A stretch of 64,000 bases of DNA from Guyparkeria sp. SCN-R1. GTDB taxonomy: Bacteria; Pseudomonadota; Gammaproteobacteria; Halothiobacillales; Halothiobacillaceae. A model generated the notes under the pieces. That model did no database searches. It was not told the origin of the DNA and was given only the letters and a program-made list of their open reading frames with translations. The translations under genes were made by a program, and so were the position numbers. Positions 10,427 to 55,926 of this stretch are shown piece after piece (within the stretch, counting starts at the first letter, position 1; every line of letters begins with the position of its first letter). The stretch lies in assembly GCF_003932495.1 (NCBI RefSeq), contig NZ_QZMT01000001.1:1-64000 (forward strand), in the 5' to 3' direction.

Positions 10427-10581
10427 GCATGGCCTCTGCGGTGGCGTCCCATCGCTTGATGGTTGTGGCGAAGTACGGCATTCATGTGCGAGTCGAAAGG
10501 AGCGGCTTTCCGGTTGGCGTCATGGGCTTCTCTCGGTCGTCTGGCAGCGGGCTTGCCCTCACTCTATAGCAGCAAGCAGCC

Positions 10582-10612
10582 CTGACGACCCGTGTCGGGC
10601 CTTTGCTATGAT
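10582..10612 (+). promoter_or_regulatory. Candidate promoter of trpS
   Basis: An extended -10 box TGCTATGAT (hexamer TATGAT at 10607-10612) lies 85 bp before the trpS ATG. A weak -35-like CTGACG is at 10582, with longer than ideal spacing (19 nt). Confidence 0.4.
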
Positions 10613-10629
10613 GATCCGCCTTTGCCCGG

Positions 10630-10655
10630 CCGGGCGGAAGGATTCTCCCGCCCGG
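10630..10655 (+). promoter_or_regulatory. Hairpin in the trpS leader
   Basis: CCGGGCGG pairs with CCGCCCGG around a 10-nt loop, between the candidate promoter and the start codon. There is no U-tract, so it is more likely a leader structure than a terminator. Confidence 0.35.
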
Positions 10656-10696
10656 TCCGGAAATGCCGTATTCACCCGATTCAAGAAGTCACATTT

Positions 10697-50641: not shown

Positions 50642-50908
50642 GGGAACCTCTGCACGAATGCCATACCGCTCTGCGCGCCTTGAGCCGGGCAGATGCAAGG
50701 CGACCGTCCGCCGCGCAAGGATGTCCCCTTGTCAAGGACGGCAACGCGGCAGGTGCTCGGCTCAAGACGCGCCCTGCGGGGCTTGGCGAGTCGCCCGTGC
50801 TCCGCGTTGCGATGCCTTGTCGAGGCCGCCGGCACGCCGGCGACATCGCGCCTTGATCACGCACGATTCGCCAAGCCAGAGCGGCATGGCATTCGTGCAG
50901 AGGTTCCC
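50642..50908. repeat. 267-bp palindromic element (copy 1), three-way-junction plan
   Basis: Terminal palindromes of 32 nt (50642-50673 and 50877-50908) pair at 31 of 32 positions. Inside are a 98-nt arm (50674-50771) whose ends CGCGCCTTGAGCCGGGCA and TGCTCGGCTCAAGACGCG pair with two exceptions, a 9-nt spacer, and a 96-nt arm (50781-50876) closed by GCTTGGCGAGTCG/CGATTCGCCAAGC (12 of 13). The central part of arm 1 is similar to copy 2 at 53508. No open frame is credible inside it. It lies between the DUF294-type gene and the DUF4212-symporter genes, all on the minus strand. Confidence 0.8.
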
Positions 50909-51028
50909 CGCCCGCCGAGGTCGGGGCCTGGCGGGTATCACGCACCCACCACGCCCGGACCCCGGAGCACGGTAAGCCTACTGGAACCGTGGGGGGAAAG
51001 GGAACCTTCGTTTACTGAGCGCCCATCA
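50909..51028. other. Unassigned gap downstream of the DUF294-type gene
   Basis: 120 bp between the palindromic element and the end of the minus-strand signalling gene; G/C-rich, with no gene and no clear terminator. Confidence 0.4.
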
Positions 51029-52915
51029 TCAGAGTTGATAGGCGATGGCCAGATGCTGCTGGAGCTTGCGGGCGATGCGAAAGGACTCCTTGAGCAATCG
51101 CTGAGTGAGCCCGTCGAGCCGGTCCGGATCGATCAGATTGTCCGGCGACTCGCCACGCTGGATCTGTGCGTATTGGTGGCGCATTCGCAGTCGCTGGATG
51201 AAGTCGTAGGCCGCGGTCAGATCCTCGGCCGGCAGGGCTCGTTCGGGAACCAGCGCCAGTCGCTGGTCGGTGCGCGTGGCCGCCGAGCCCTGGGCCAGCG
51301 CCTCGATACGAGCGGCGTCGACGAACGGCGTGGCGCCGTCGAGCTTGATGTCGATGCCGCGCTGACCGCCACGAGAACGGGTGCGAAAGCCGCCGAACAG
51401 GGTCAGTGGCGGCTGATTGCGCAGGGCGTTGGCGGCAAGTTGTCGCCGGAAGCGGCTATTCTTCTTGGCCGGCTCGCGCCAGGCGTTCGCCCATTGCTCG
51501 AACAACGATTCGCTACCGGCCAGTCCGCGCGCGTCGAAGAAGATGCTGGCCTTAAGCAGGTGCTCGGGCGTGCCTTGGTCGATCCAGTCGCGAAAGCGTT
51601 TGTCCCACTCATCGACTGACAGACACAGGTCCGGATTGCCGGCCATGATGTTGCCCGGACACAGCGGGTAGCCCAGCTGGTCGAGGGCCTCGTTGACCCG
51701 GCGGGCCAACGGCAACAGGTGATCGCGAGCCGCGTGGGGATCGATTGATCCGCCGAAGACCAGACCGTTGTCCTGGTCGGTGGCCAGGGTCTGCTCCGAG
51801 CGCGCCTCGCTGCCGAAGGTGAGCCAGCACCATTCCAGCTCCGCGGGCAGGGGGGCATCCTCGAACGTCAGCCCGATCACGCGTCGGGTGATCGCATCGT
51901 TGATGCCGGACACGATCCGGCTAATTGGGGCGAACCCCGAGCCGGATTCGAGCAGCGCGCCGACGATGCCGGGCACCTCGTGGCGAATGCCGGCCAGCGC
52001 CTCGATGTCACGTGCACGGCCGATGCGCTGATGCAGCAGGCCCGGCGTCATTGCATTGACGCGATAGAGCGCGCCCTCGTCGAGCACGCCTAGCGGTTCA
52101 TCGCGGCCCCGCTCGGTGACCAGCAGGTGATGAAAGCCGTGTTCAGCCAGCGTGACGGCCGCCTCGAGCAGCGAGGTATCGGCATCGATGCCGACCGGGT
52201 CGCGTGTGGCGATCTCGGCGAGCGTGGTGTCGGCCGGGCGGGTCAACCCGCGGAAGGCGAGGTCCCGAAGCGTGGCGATGCCAAAGCCGTCGGCGAGATT
52301 GACCAGGATCGCCTCGCCGCCGTGGGCTTCCAGCGCGCGGGCCGCACGGGCGAGCGTGGTGTCGCCGTCGAGTTTCAGCGTGCGTGACTCCATCCGGGCG
52401 CGGATCGGCGTGGCCGGATCGAGCAGCGCGCCGGAAGGGCCGGCCCCGTCGTCGATTTCCTCGGCCACCGGGCCGCGGGTGAGCAGGTGCCCGATGCGCC
52501 GGGTGCAGAAGTCGTCAAAGGCCTCGCTTTCGCGCCGGAGCTGCTCGAAGGCATTGATCGGCAGCGTGACCGCCTTGCCCGGTTCGGCGACCTGCTGGCG
52601 GGTGCTGACCGGACGGCCCTCCATCAGCGCGCCCAGCGGAAAGCTGTCGCCCCGGCTCAGCGACCAGACCGGCTGCCCGTCGGAGCCCTCGACCAGACCG
52701 TCCACGCGCCCGGAAAGCAGCACGAAGAATGTCTCGGGTGGCCCCATGCGGGGCTCCAGCAATACCTCGCCATGCTCAAGTCGACGAATGCGCCCCTCGC
52801 GCATCGAGCGGGCCAGGATGCCGGGGTCGATGCGGTCGAATGGCGCGATCTCGCGCAGCGCGAGCAGGGCCTCGCGGGCGTCTTCTGAGAGGTCGGTCGG
52901 ATCGGGATCGTCCAT
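51029..52915 (-). CDS. cNMP-binding / CBS / DUF294 nucleotidyltransferase-like signalling protein
   Basis: A 628-residue cytoplasmic protein. Order: cyclic-nucleotide-binding fold (about 25-130, FVLLSGRVDGLV), two CBS repeats (about 170-290), a GlnD-like DUF294 nucleotidyltransferase domain (WLTFGSEARSEQTLATDQDN, with the G-S-x-AR-x(6)-D-x-D pattern) and a C-terminal DUF294 helical domain. Proteins of this type occur next to VC_2705 symporters, where they probably regulate transport; how is unknown. ATG 52915 is preferred because GGAG is 5 nt before it; a longer frame starts at 52957. Confidence 0.85.
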   Translation of the reverse strand: MDDPDPTDLSEDAREALLALREIAPFDRIDPGILARSMREGRIRRLEHGEVLLEPRMGPPETFFVLLSGRVDGLVEGSDGQPVWSLSRGDSFPLGALMEGRPVSTRQQVAEPGKAVTLPINAFEQLRRESEAFDDFCTRRIGHLLTRGPVAEEIDDGAGPSGALLDPATPIRARMESRTLKLDGDTTLARAARALEAHGGEAILVNLADGFGIATLRDLAFRGLTRPADTTLAEIATRDPVGIDADTSLLEAAVTLAEHGFHHLLVTERGRDEPLGVLDEGALYRVNAMTPGLLHQRIGRARDIEALAGIRHEVPGIVGALLESGSGFAPISRIVSGINDAITRRVIGLTFEDAPLPAELEWCWLTFGSEARSEQTLATDQDNGLVFGGSIDPHAARDHLLPLARRVNEALDQLGYPLCPGNIMAGNPDLCLSVDEWDKRFRDWIDQGTPEHLLKASIFFDARGLAGSESLFEQWANAWREPAKKNSRFRRQLAANALRNQPPLTLFGGFRTRSRGGQRGIDIKLDGATPFVDAARIEALAQGSAATRTDQRLALVPERALPAEDLTAAYDFIQRLRMRHQYAQIQRGESPDNLIDPDRLDGLTQRLLKESFRIARKLQQHLAIAYQL

Positions 52916-52989
52916 GGTCACTCCGAGTTTGCGCCGGACGGCTATGCTGAAATCCATGTGTTATTCCCAACCATAGCGGAGGTTTTGCC

Positions 52990-53508
52990 ATGAGGGGAGT
53001 GTCCATTGGTCGAGCGTTGATGCCGGTTCTCATGCTGGCTGCGGCCTGTGTGCAGGCCCAGGAGCATGCGGATGGCGCGGGGGACGTGGTCACGAGCGAC
53101 CGGATCGGCATGGGGCTGGCGGCGGATATCGCGGAGGAGGCGGTCGCCGCCTGCACCCGACGGGGCTACGCGGTCACCGCGGTGGTGGTCGATCCGTCCG
53201 GCGACCCGCAGGTGATGATGCGCGCGACCCATGCGCCGCGCTTTACCCGCCAGATCGCCACCGACAAGGCACGTGCGGTGATCCTGGCCGGGATCGATTC
53301 GGGGGCCTTTCGCGCCAACCGCGAAGACATCCGCATGGAGATGAACCACGTCGACGGCATTCTCGTGCTCGACGGGGCGGTGGCGATCGAGTCGGCCGGC
53401 TCGACCATCGGCGCGCTGGGCATCAGTGGCGCGCCAGGCGGCGACAAGGATGCCGAGTGCGCGCGCGAGGCGCTGGAGGCCTTCTTCGACCGCCTTCAGC
53501 TGCGCTAG
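52990..53508 (+). CDS. Exported HbpS/GlcG-family protein
   Basis: A 172-residue protein with a signal peptide (about residues 1-24, ending CVQAQ) and a GlcG/HbpS domain (ADIAEEAVAACTRRGYAVTAVVVD, then ATDKARAVI and GALGISGAPGGDKDAECA). Members bind heme or cobalamin or accompany glycolate genes; the ligand here is unknown. The stop codon TAG (53506-53508) lies at the outermost edge of the palindromic element, so insertion has probably set or reset the C-terminus. Divergent from the DUF294-type gene. Confidence 0.82.
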   Translation: MRGVSIGRALMPVLMLAAACVQAQEHADGAGDVVTSDRIGMGLAADIAEEAVAACTRRGYAVTAVVVDPSGDPQVMMRATHAPRFTRQIATDKARAVILAGIDSGAFRANREDIRMEMNHVDGILVLDGAVAIESAGSTIGALGISGAPGGDKDAECAREALEAFFDRLQLR

Positions 53509-53774
53509 GGAAACTCTGCACGATTCGATGACGTCTCTGCGGGACCTCCAAGGGTCCAGTTGCAAGGCGCAGTCCGCCGTGAAGGGCCATCCCCTTTACA
53601 AGGGCTGCAACGCCGCAGATGGGCCCTTGGAGGCCCGCCCGGACGGGGCTTGCGGGTTTGCCCGCACTCGTCGTTGCCGTCCCTCGACGGGCAATGAGCC
53701 CGCCTTCGGTCCGGCGCCTCGATTGCGAACAAACCCGCGAGCCAGAGATGCCATCGAATCGTGCAGAGTTTCCC
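53508..53774. repeat. 267-bp palindromic element (copy 2), three-way-junction plan
   Basis: Same plan and same length as copy 1 at 50642. The terminal palindrome extends three bases outward on each side (53505-53539 and 53743-53777; 33 of 35 pair). Arm 1 is 98 nt (53540-53637), closed by CGGGACCTCCAAGGGTCCA and TGGGCCCTTGGAGGCCCG; spacer 9 nt; arm 2 is 96 nt (53647-53742), closed by GGCTTGCGGGTTTG/CAAACCCGCGAGCC. The outward three bases are CTA and TAG, the stop codons of the two flanking convergent genes. Confidence 0.8.
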
Positions 53775-54664
53775 TAGGCGTCGATCGGACAGGGGCAACT
53801 GCCCCGCTCGATCTGCACCGTGGCGTGCTGGATGCCGAAGCGTTGTCGCAGGTCTAACTGAAGTTTGTGCAGGAACGCATCGCTGTCGTCGGGCGGTTCG
53901 GGCATGACCAGGTGAACACTCAACGCGGTCTCGCGGGTGGACAGCGCCCAGACGTGCAAATGGTGGTGATCGGTCACGCCGGGCAGGGTGGCGAGGTGTC
54001 GCTCGACCTCGGCGAGGTCGACTTCCTCGGGCACGCCATGCAGCACCAATTGCAGTGAACGGCGGATCAGGCCGACCGCCGGGACCAGGATGACCAGGCT
54101 GACGAGGATGCTTAGCAGCGGGTCGATCAGTGCAAACCCGGTGAGCAGCACGATCAGGCCGGAGATCGCGACGGCCACTGACACGGCCGCGTCGGCGGCC
54201 ATGTGCAGGAAGGCGCCGCGCAGGTTGAGGTCGTGTTTCTGGCCCGAAAGGAGCAGCCAGGCGGTCGCGGTGTTGACCACGACGCCGGCGAGCGCCACCC
54301 CGATGACGAGCAGCCCGTGCACGGCGGGTGGATCCACCAGCCGCATGCCTGCCTCCCATAGGATCCACAGCGAGACCAGCGCCAGTGTCACCCCGTTGAT
54401 CAGCGCGGCGAGCAACGTGCTGCTGCCCAGCCCGTAACTGAACTGGCGGGAGGCGATCCGCCGACCCAGGCGATTGGCGCCCCAGGCAAGCAAGAGCCCC
54501 AGCACGTCGCCGAGGTTGTGGGCCGCGTCGGCCAGCAGGGCCATGGATTGCCCCAGGACGCCGGCGATCGCTTCGATGACGACGAAGCCGAGGTTGAGGA
54601 CGATGCCGATCCCCAGGGCCCTTCCTGCGGCAGCGCTGACGTCATGGTGGTGATGGGCGCGCAT
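53774..54664 (-). CDS. Cation diffusion facilitator (CzcD-like) transporter
   Basis: A 296-residue inner-membrane antiporter exporting zinc or related metals in exchange for protons. Six transmembrane segments; the metal site reads LLADAAHNLGDV in TM2 and LHMAADAAVSV in TM5. A His-rich N-terminus (MRAHHHHD) may collect metal, and a C-terminal cytoplasmic ferredoxin-like domain follows. The stop codon TAG (53774-53776 on the minus strand) is shared with the end of the palindromic element. Confidence 0.93.
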   Translation of the reverse strand: MRAHHHHDVSAAAGRALGIGIVLNLGFVVIEAIAGVLGQSMALLADAAHNLGDVLGLLLAWGANRLGRRIASRQFSYGLGSSTLLAALINGVTLALVSLWILWEAGMRLVDPPAVHGLLVIGVALAGVVVNTATAWLLLSGQKHDLNLRGAFLHMAADAAVSVAVAISGLIVLLTGFALIDPLLSILVSLVILVPAVGLIRRSLQLVLHGVPEEVDLAEVERHLATLPGVTDHHHLHVWALSTRETALSVHLVMPEPPDDSDAFLHKLQLDLRQRFGIQHATVQIERGSCPCPIDA

Positions 54665-54787: not shown

Positions 54788-54856
54788 GTAGGAGCGGCTT
54801 CAGCCGCGATGCCACACGCGGGCACCATTGCGCATCGCGGCTGAAGCCGCTCCTAC
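54788..54856. repeat. Inverted pair of GTAG-type REP sequences
   Basis: GTAGGAGCGGCTTCAGCCGC (54788-54807) and its reverse complement (ending 54856) enclose about 25 bp; each half is also a hairpin. Same repeat as at 7001. Lies between two minus-strand genes, the cation transporter and the thioredoxin. Confidence 0.85.
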
Positions 54857-55871: not shown

Positions 55872-55926
55872 GGGAAGGTCTGCACGAATGCCATACCGCT
55901 CTGCGAGCCTTGAGCCGGGCATCTGC
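55872..55926 (+). repeat. Solo end of the 267-bp palindromic element family
   Basis: About 50 of 55 bases match the left end and first arm stem of the element at 50642, including GAATGCCATACCGCTCTG and CCTTGAGCCGGGCA. The right half of the element is missing; sequence beyond 55926 forms a different hairpin. Confidence 0.7.

Follow-up and report, generated by a model that had tools for sequence, protein, structure and literature searches.

Two foldback elements lie within the stretch of the Guyparkeria sp. SCN-R1 genome analysed here (contig NZ_QZMT01000001.1, positions 1 to 64,000; "the window" denotes this whole stretch of 64,000 nucleotides), and wherever the two differ their paired bases have changed in step, which raises the question of what maintains the pairing. 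Compensatory base-pair change is often taken as a sign of structural selection, and an earlier note on this DNA had offered either selection on structure or palindrome-correcting replication as its cause. The reading that we favour, and to which we give about an even chance, is that a mutation in one terminal inverted repeat (TIR) is often copied to the other TIR in one event during mobilisation of the element, leaving the ends matched while their sequence drifts.

Each element is 265 bp long. Copy 1 (50643-50907, + strand) and copy 2 (53509-53773, + strand) are recognised by their inverted repeats and own-genome matches and belong to two subfamilies, copy-1-like and copy-2-like. Both consist of 22-bp TIRs followed by a pair of inward-lying hairpin arms, each about 100 nt long, and the second arm, read on the opposite strand, resembles the first, so that either strand meets the same type of end, a TIR and then an arm. 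Inverted repeats and alignment place the left and right TIRs (+ and - strand, respectively) at 50643-50664 and 50886-50907 in copy 1 and at 53509-53530 and 53752-53773 in copy 2. Arm 1, with limits drawn from the sequence, spans 50673-50772 and 53539-53638, and arm 2, defined by inverted repeat and fold, 50780-50877 and 53647-53743 (all given on the + strand); in copy 1, arm 1 comprises a base stem, an internal loop formed by GCAAGGCG and CAACGC, an inner stem and an apical hairpin. Compared with dinucleotide shuffles, copy 1 folded as RNA has a z-score of -11.75 and copy 2 folded as DNA one of -11.74, and in either case 0 of 200 shuffles folded as well as the real copy. The open reading frame (ORF) list of the window contains no ORF of 80 or more amino acids wholly within copy 1 or copy 2.

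All strings quoted in the earlier note were located in the window, and its statement that partners change together was confirmed. In the outer stem, GAATGCCAT (50656) pairs with ATGGCATTC (50886) in copy 1 and GATTCGATG (53522) with CATCGAATC (53752) in copy 2; the base of arm 1 is formed by CCTTGAGCCG (50678) and CGGCTCAAG (50758) in copy 1 and by CCTCCAAGGGT (53545) and GCCCTTGGAGG (53623) in copy 2; and the inner stem of arm 1 reads CCGTCC (50704) with GGACGG (50736) in the former and GCAGTCC (53569) with GGGCTGC (53602) in the latter. The middle strings shared by the two copies are GCAAGGCG (50695, 53562), GTCCGCCG (50706, 53572) and CAACGC (50742, 53608).

For a many-copy comparison, 273 non-overlapping profile hits were reduced to 233 of near full length and then to 207 distinct placements of full length, drawn from the own genome and from other genomes of the genus and its sister genus, which were oriented and aligned. 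The consensus of 112 pairs was derived from single-sequence folds of these same copies, so that percent-paired values lean towards structure, and because the pairs were taken from the aligned sequences themselves we rely on event counts with controls. A covariation test run with our own R-scape-like script (tree-based null, 30 simulations, extrapolated tail, E < 0.05 over all pairs) returned seven significant pairs, all in the structure: five in the outer stem, one in the arm-1 base and one in the arm-1 inner stem, so that all three stems named in the earlier note are represented; arm 2 and the apical hairpins had none. Deep subfamilies that inflate the null probably account for the small number of hits. 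The variety of matched states is illustrated by the TIR column pair 6-265, which is AT in 77 copies, GC in 57, CG in 48 and TA in 6. The further suggestion that the unpaired middle is better conserved applies to GCAAGGCG and CAAG, with 0-8 inferred changes per column; it does not extend to GTCCGCCG (mean 10.8 changes per column) or to CAACGC, where two of six columns have 21 and 23 changes, and, taken together, consensus-unpaired columns change more than paired ones, averaging 14.4 changes against 10.2.

Event counts are far stronger and more informative than the all-pairs test. They were obtained by parsimony on a FastTree phylogeny with 100 tree simulations as the null, counting as doubles those same-branch changes of both partners that preserve Watson-Crick pairing. 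The excess of doubles is strongest in the TIR: columns 2-23 (in copy 1, the left TIR) have 132 doubles among 138 coincident changes, against null means of 4.0 (maximum 10) and 19.2 (maximum 29). It is clear in the arm bases, with 38 doubles and 48 coincidences in arm 1 (null means 1.8 and 10.9) and 40 and 48 in arm 2 (2.1 and 9.5), and weaker within the arms: 12 and 19 in the arm-1 inner stem (1.2 and 6.3), 6 and 7 in the arm-2 mid stem (0.5 and 2.7), 13 and 23 in the arm-2 inner stem (1.3 and 7.3) and 9 and 16 in the arm-2 apical stem (0.8 and 5.0). No excess is found in outer columns 24-31 (2 doubles, 4 coincidences; null means 0.4 and 4.4) or in the arm-1 apical stem (2 and 8; 0.9 and 4.3), for which a control with slid partners gave up to 17 coincidences, above the true register. 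Elsewhere, coincidences in the slid-partner controls numbered 13-25 in the TIR, 6-18 and 5-11 in the two arm bases, and 6-13 and 3-10 in the two inner stems. On a tree built from interior columns only, the TIR doubles number 208 of 223 coincidences, with null values of 6.5 and 39.3. The covariation test and the event counts thus support, for the three named stems, the proposal that pairing rather than sequence is maintained.

The mobility of the element, which the earlier note had not included, is demonstrated by an empty site together with a target duplication. In a genome of the same genus (G001), the site of copy 2 is empty and reads ...CAGCTGCGCTAG|GCGTCGATCG... with a single CTAG, while in the window CTAG stands on both sides of the element (53505-53508 and 53774-53777), showing that copy 2 has moved. 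Among the 207 placements, the tetramers flanking GGAA...TTCC are identical in 56 (14.1 expected when swapped), and where the left tetramer is not self-complementary it recurs as a direct repeat in 28 of 148 cases (4.2 expected) and as an inverted one in 6 (3.9 expected). An exact duplication is absent from most copies, including copy 1, which is flanked by CCTG and CCGC. The CTAG target of copy 2 also overlaps the TAG stop codons of both convergent frames at this site (52990-53508, +; 53774-54664, -), the left duplication taking in the stop of the upstream + strand ORF; insertion of copy 2 thus leaves both stops intact.

The two TIRs of one element resemble each other far more than they resemble those of other elements, with 1.16 differing positions between left and right against 6.08 between elements. 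They are identical in 65 of 204 copies (3.5 when swapped; three of the 207 have gaps and were omitted), and 35 distinct matched TIR sequences occur. In 43 relatives from named genomes the corresponding differences are 1.16 and 6.64, these relatives having been chosen for a match of 13 or more among 20 end bases, a choice that favours matched ends. Whether such matching arises by one event or by two can be judged from the changes themselves. The TIR doubles comprise 62 transitions and 70 transversions, and the single changes, averaged over ten reconstructions, 118 and 67. From the single-change spectrum, a transversion/transition ratio of about 0.16, or about 14% transversions, is predicted for two independent hits, while the averaged doubles have 69 transversions in 131 (p = 8e-26). 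Removal of the six recurrent columns (6, 7, 8, 16, 19 and 20), which leaves 16 pairs, still yields 60 doubles in 61 coincidences, with 33 transitions and 27 transversions among the doubles and 78 and 40 among the singles. Runs of double change are mostly of size one (116 of 130, with 14 longer), which argues against block exchange, and some doubles fall on short terminal branches with only 3-12 changes in all. Transversion-rich, mostly isolated doubles on short branches favour arm-to-arm copying of a single mutation.

The main rival holds that matching is enforced by selection at transposition, the enzyme requiring matching ends and an independent second mutation restoring the match. It would account for the restriction of coupling to the roughly 22-bp TIR and to copies at different sites, not orthologous insertions, and for the outermost pair 2-269, which is G-C in 204 of 207 copies. 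However, two hits predict the ratio of 0.16 and not the observed 70 transversions to 62 transitions, or 27 to 33 without the recurrent columns. Selection would also have to explain how rare matched states arose on short branches: 13-258 went from AT to TA on a branch of seven changes (TA in 1 of 207 copies), 3-268 from GC to TA on one of eight (TA in 1 of 207) and 10-261 from TA to GC on one of seven (GC in 5 of 207). We consider this explanation rather unlikely.

The second cause named in the earlier note, correction of quasi-palindromes in place at replication, can be separated from correction linked to mobility by comparing orthologous insertions, recognised by matching flanks on both sides between genomes and taken to change only in place, with paralogous ones. 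Within one data set, this contrast can part the two processes. In the TIR, 20 disjoint orthologous pairs have 23 single changes and 1 double, and 62 disjoint paralogous pairs have 88 and 38 (Fisher p = 0.005). The arm bases behave differently: in an orthologous set of 22 pairs they show 7 doubles where 0.72 would be expected (a number reached in 0 of 1000 simulations), and in an alternative set (21 pairs, at most 30 differences) 6 against 0.94, so the arm bases are corrected in place, like quasi-palindromes. For the TIR, the same two sets give 2 doubles against 0.83 expected (p = 0.20, 26 singles) and 3 against 0.94 (p = 0.08, 29 singles), and for the remaining stem pairs 2 against 0.83 (p = 0.21) and 4 against 1.01 (p = 0.019). 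The coupling of the TIRs thus seems tied to mobility.

An explanation of all coupled change by correction in place, TIRs included and with no need of transposition, could appeal to the arm bases, to the four doubles of the other stem pairs in the second set and to the few TIR doubles that do occur between orthologous insertions. Template switching at quasi-palindromes, in which imperfect inverted repeats are made more perfect in one event, is described in PMC7202029 (for Escherichia coli) and PMC6649704. The arms here behave as this classical case; the coupling of the TIRs differs from it in spanning about 220 bp and in appearing linked to mobility. Given how few the TIR doubles are in orthologues beside the 38 of 126 changed pairs that are doubles in paralogues, we think it improbable that correction in place explains everything. 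Of the causes offered in the earlier note, copying between arms fits better than stepwise structural selection, in view of the transversion-rich TIR doubles and of similar numbers of G-T and A-C mismatches (below), and palindrome-correcting replication in place is shown for the arm bases only, the TIR doubles being concentrated among copies at different sites.

Several results weigh against copying of TIR mutations during mobilisation. The doubles are richer in transversions than the singles (p = 0.004), which simple copying does not predict. Paralogues with at most 14 differences (22 pairs) have 27 singles to 4 doubles, close to the orthologous 23 to 1; part of the contrast between orthologues and paralogues may reflect age, and at matched low divergence it is not significant. 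As noted above, a few TIR doubles separate orthologous insertions. The coupling stops sharply at column 23 (in paralogues, columns 24-31 have 0 doubles and 47 singles), and such an edge also fits selection on a putative protein-binding site. No transposase serving the element was found in a search of three IS5-type families and in TIR-pair scans, nor was an intermediate, and the parsimony is approximate, on a tree of possibly recombining repeats.

The elements are non-autonomous and resemble miniature inverted-repeat transposable elements (MITEs). Under the copying reading, they would be moved in trans by a putative transposase that binds the TIRs of about 22 bp and leaves a duplicated CTAG-like target of 4 bp. 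At some point in the cycle the TIRs would pair with each other, and two candidate steps can be envisaged: one TIR may serve as template for the other, or for its mismatch repair, in a single-stranded panhandle, or a template switch may take place at the TIR-TIR junction of an excised form. Active lineages would keep matching ends, present-day TIR mismatches being mostly later decay, and the shorter arm hairpins would be corrected separately, in place, by ordinary quasi-palindrome template switching. More tentatively, and with some doubt, end-copying may be built into each, or many, rounds of transposition, the element thereby repairing and diversifying its own ends symmetrically and possibly using each inward arm, folded, on the strand on which it is 5'. 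The copying reading makes a testable prediction about an unrecognised transposition step. MITEs are already known, as are the correction of quasi-palindromes and compensatory change within REPINs; this is a natural family, statistically large enough, in which much compensatory change appears to be due to one-event copying between arms, and it cautions that covariation in mobile foldback DNA need not mean RNA function. Our literature searches, thin on subscription papers and preprints and weak as to priority, found no paper on this foldback family or on mobility-linked TIR copying.

Selection on a functional RNA, or on a folded single-strand structure, draws its support from the arms. On branches leading to at least two insertion sites, single changes in arm 1, read on the + strand, lead more often to G-T than to A-C (35.5 to 9.2) and those in arm 2 show the reverse (8.3 to 24.6; averages of ten reconstructions, Fisher 1e-6 on rounded counts), and relatives sharing the arm-1 core also have the two-arm layout and end repeats. 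A simple strand mutation bias would push both arms the same way, while the observed arms go opposite ways; and since an A-C mismatch on one strand corresponds to G-T on its complement, each arm may act as a folded strand when read in the direction that makes it the 5' arm, which is a lead and not a demonstration. The same asymmetry, however, recurs more weakly on single-site branches (145 to 126 in arm 1, 82 to 117 in arm 2), where much of the change is post-insertion, so that a local mutational cause is possible. In the TIR, single changes from Watson-Crick pairs in columns 2-23 lead on average to 60 G-T and 58 A-C mismatches (95 and 86 in columns 1-31), revealing no RNA-like G-U preference, and a short form without intact arms has dispersed. 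We accordingly rate this explanation as quite improbable, and RNA-structure selection on the TIRs is disfavoured. An RNA gene or riboswitch was likewise rejected, the TIR lacking a G-T preference and Rfam giving no match at gathering score in the window; at a loose threshold only mir-1286 (E = 0.89) appeared, on copy 2, and seven relative loci gave only a TPP hit below threshold (33.8 bits against 54.3), which overlaps the first 12 element bases of one of them (L345). Recombination exchanging TIR alleles between copies is very improbable, since, although TIR variants recur across subfamilies (GGAAGGTCTG ends in the copy-1-like L006, the copy-2-like L062 and L029), a one-end swap breaks pairing and both ends would need replacing, 60 doubles in 61 coincidences persist without the recurrent columns, and most runs are single pairs.

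As to the class of the element, the TIRs, the target-site duplication with its empty site, and the many copies that have no internal transposase gene are those of a MITE. Like IS5-type MITEs, it is short and non-coding and carries TIRs, with a 4-bp CTAG-like duplication here and one of 3 bp, TNA, in the relatives drawn from named genomes: among the 43 relatives, which have a GA[AG]C[CG]T end, the 3-bp flanks are identical in 20 (7.3 expected), all of them TNA. YTAR and TNA are types of target used by IS5-family subgroups. The family differs from IS5-type MITEs in its two-arm interior, in a core motif common to distant relatives, in ends that change in step and in a host genome in which three Pfam families revealed no IS5-type transposase: PF05598, PF01609 and PF13586 were all not found in the own genome, and among the 11 genomes of the genus PF05598 was found only in G003, PF01609 only in G001 and PF13586 in none. 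Nor was an autonomous relative with the same TIR found, no TIR pair at insertion-sequence spacing appearing in the own-genome list (inspected by eye) or in the collected loci; this search for a partner comprised the three Pfam families and the TIR-pair scans, and other transposase families were not searched.

REPINs, mobilised with RAYT transposases, are likewise dispersed inverted-repeat hairpins. They are not known to duplicate their target site on insertion, whereas a direct 4-bp duplication is present here, and the present foldback family also has other ends. The Y1 transposase family (PF01797) occurs in 6 of the 11 genus genomes, the own included, and was not found in the near-complete G004 and G005, both of which carry the element. 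Compensatory change in REPINs is reported in PMC3116915, which also gives a spacing of 71 bp between the end 16-mers of group-I REPINs, against an element of 265 bp here. Integron attC sites also combine a variable sequence with a conserved foldback, and are not terminal inverted repeat elements.

The MITE-like family occurs in Guyparkeria and Halothiobacillus, and related elements are present in Burkholderiales and other Proteobacteria. At near full length, copy 1 has 17 matches in the own genome (2.4 Mb) at 79% identity or more, and copy 2 has 14 at or above 82%, each copy itself counted; partial and more diverged matches occur besides. Matches to copy 2 were found in 10 of the 11 genus genomes, own included, the exception (G003) being 64% complete; in the sister genus (g4, ten genomes searched) matches were obtained in two genomes with copy 1, in three with L029 and in five with L040 as query. 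The arm-1 core pattern occurs in at least 104 stretches of named genomes. Among these 104 matches, the motif is enclosed by an inverted repeat in 76, of which 64 span 250-290 bp, and 28 have none, some resembling chance hits in genes and some being truncated where a contig or locus stops; matches with ends come from taxa that include Guyparkeria, Halothiobacillus, Acidovorax, Paracidovorax, Variovorax, Curvibacter and Hydrogenophilales. Relatives beyond the Halothiobacillus group have different TIR sequences. A plasmid search with a Paracidovorax copy as query matched one Comamonas record, which has no annotation under the match. Naive ORF calling placed 57 of 111 insertion sites inside ORFs, a figure judged unreliable in this G+C-rich DNA and left unused.

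Nine short forms were fetched, five of them of 92-94 bp. Four of these (L392, L393, L395 and L396) share one deletion junction, by which arm 1 and half of arm 2 are lost, and sit at four different sites in two species; the fifth (L394) has a different junction. The presence of one derivative without intact arms at four sites suggests that dispersal does not require intact arms in cis. L396 carries a matched TIR change that is absent from L392, L393 and L395, and a further form, L397, is a TIR-only element of 70 bp. Two copies in another genome (G010:C174:10157-10424 and 10429-10694) lie in tandem with four bases between them, an arrangement that would follow if one copy inserted into the target duplication left by the other.

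A third, truncated copy, consisting of the left TIR and the start of arm 1, lies in the window at 55872-55921 (+ strand; 94% match to positions 1-50 of copy 1). A further short palindromic sequence with GCGAGGTC...GACCTCGC-like ends interrupts several copies near element position 100 or truncates them, namely L074 and L082 (one copy, in G000:C3), L334, and L400, which is the third copy of the window, after about 55930; this palindrome probably represents another small repeat family that has become nested within the foldback family. Separately, the window contains at 54788-54856 a perfect 25-nt inverted repeat, GTAGGAGCGGCTTCAGCCGCGATGC, with a 19-nt spacer, which we take to resemble a REP pair (REPIN).

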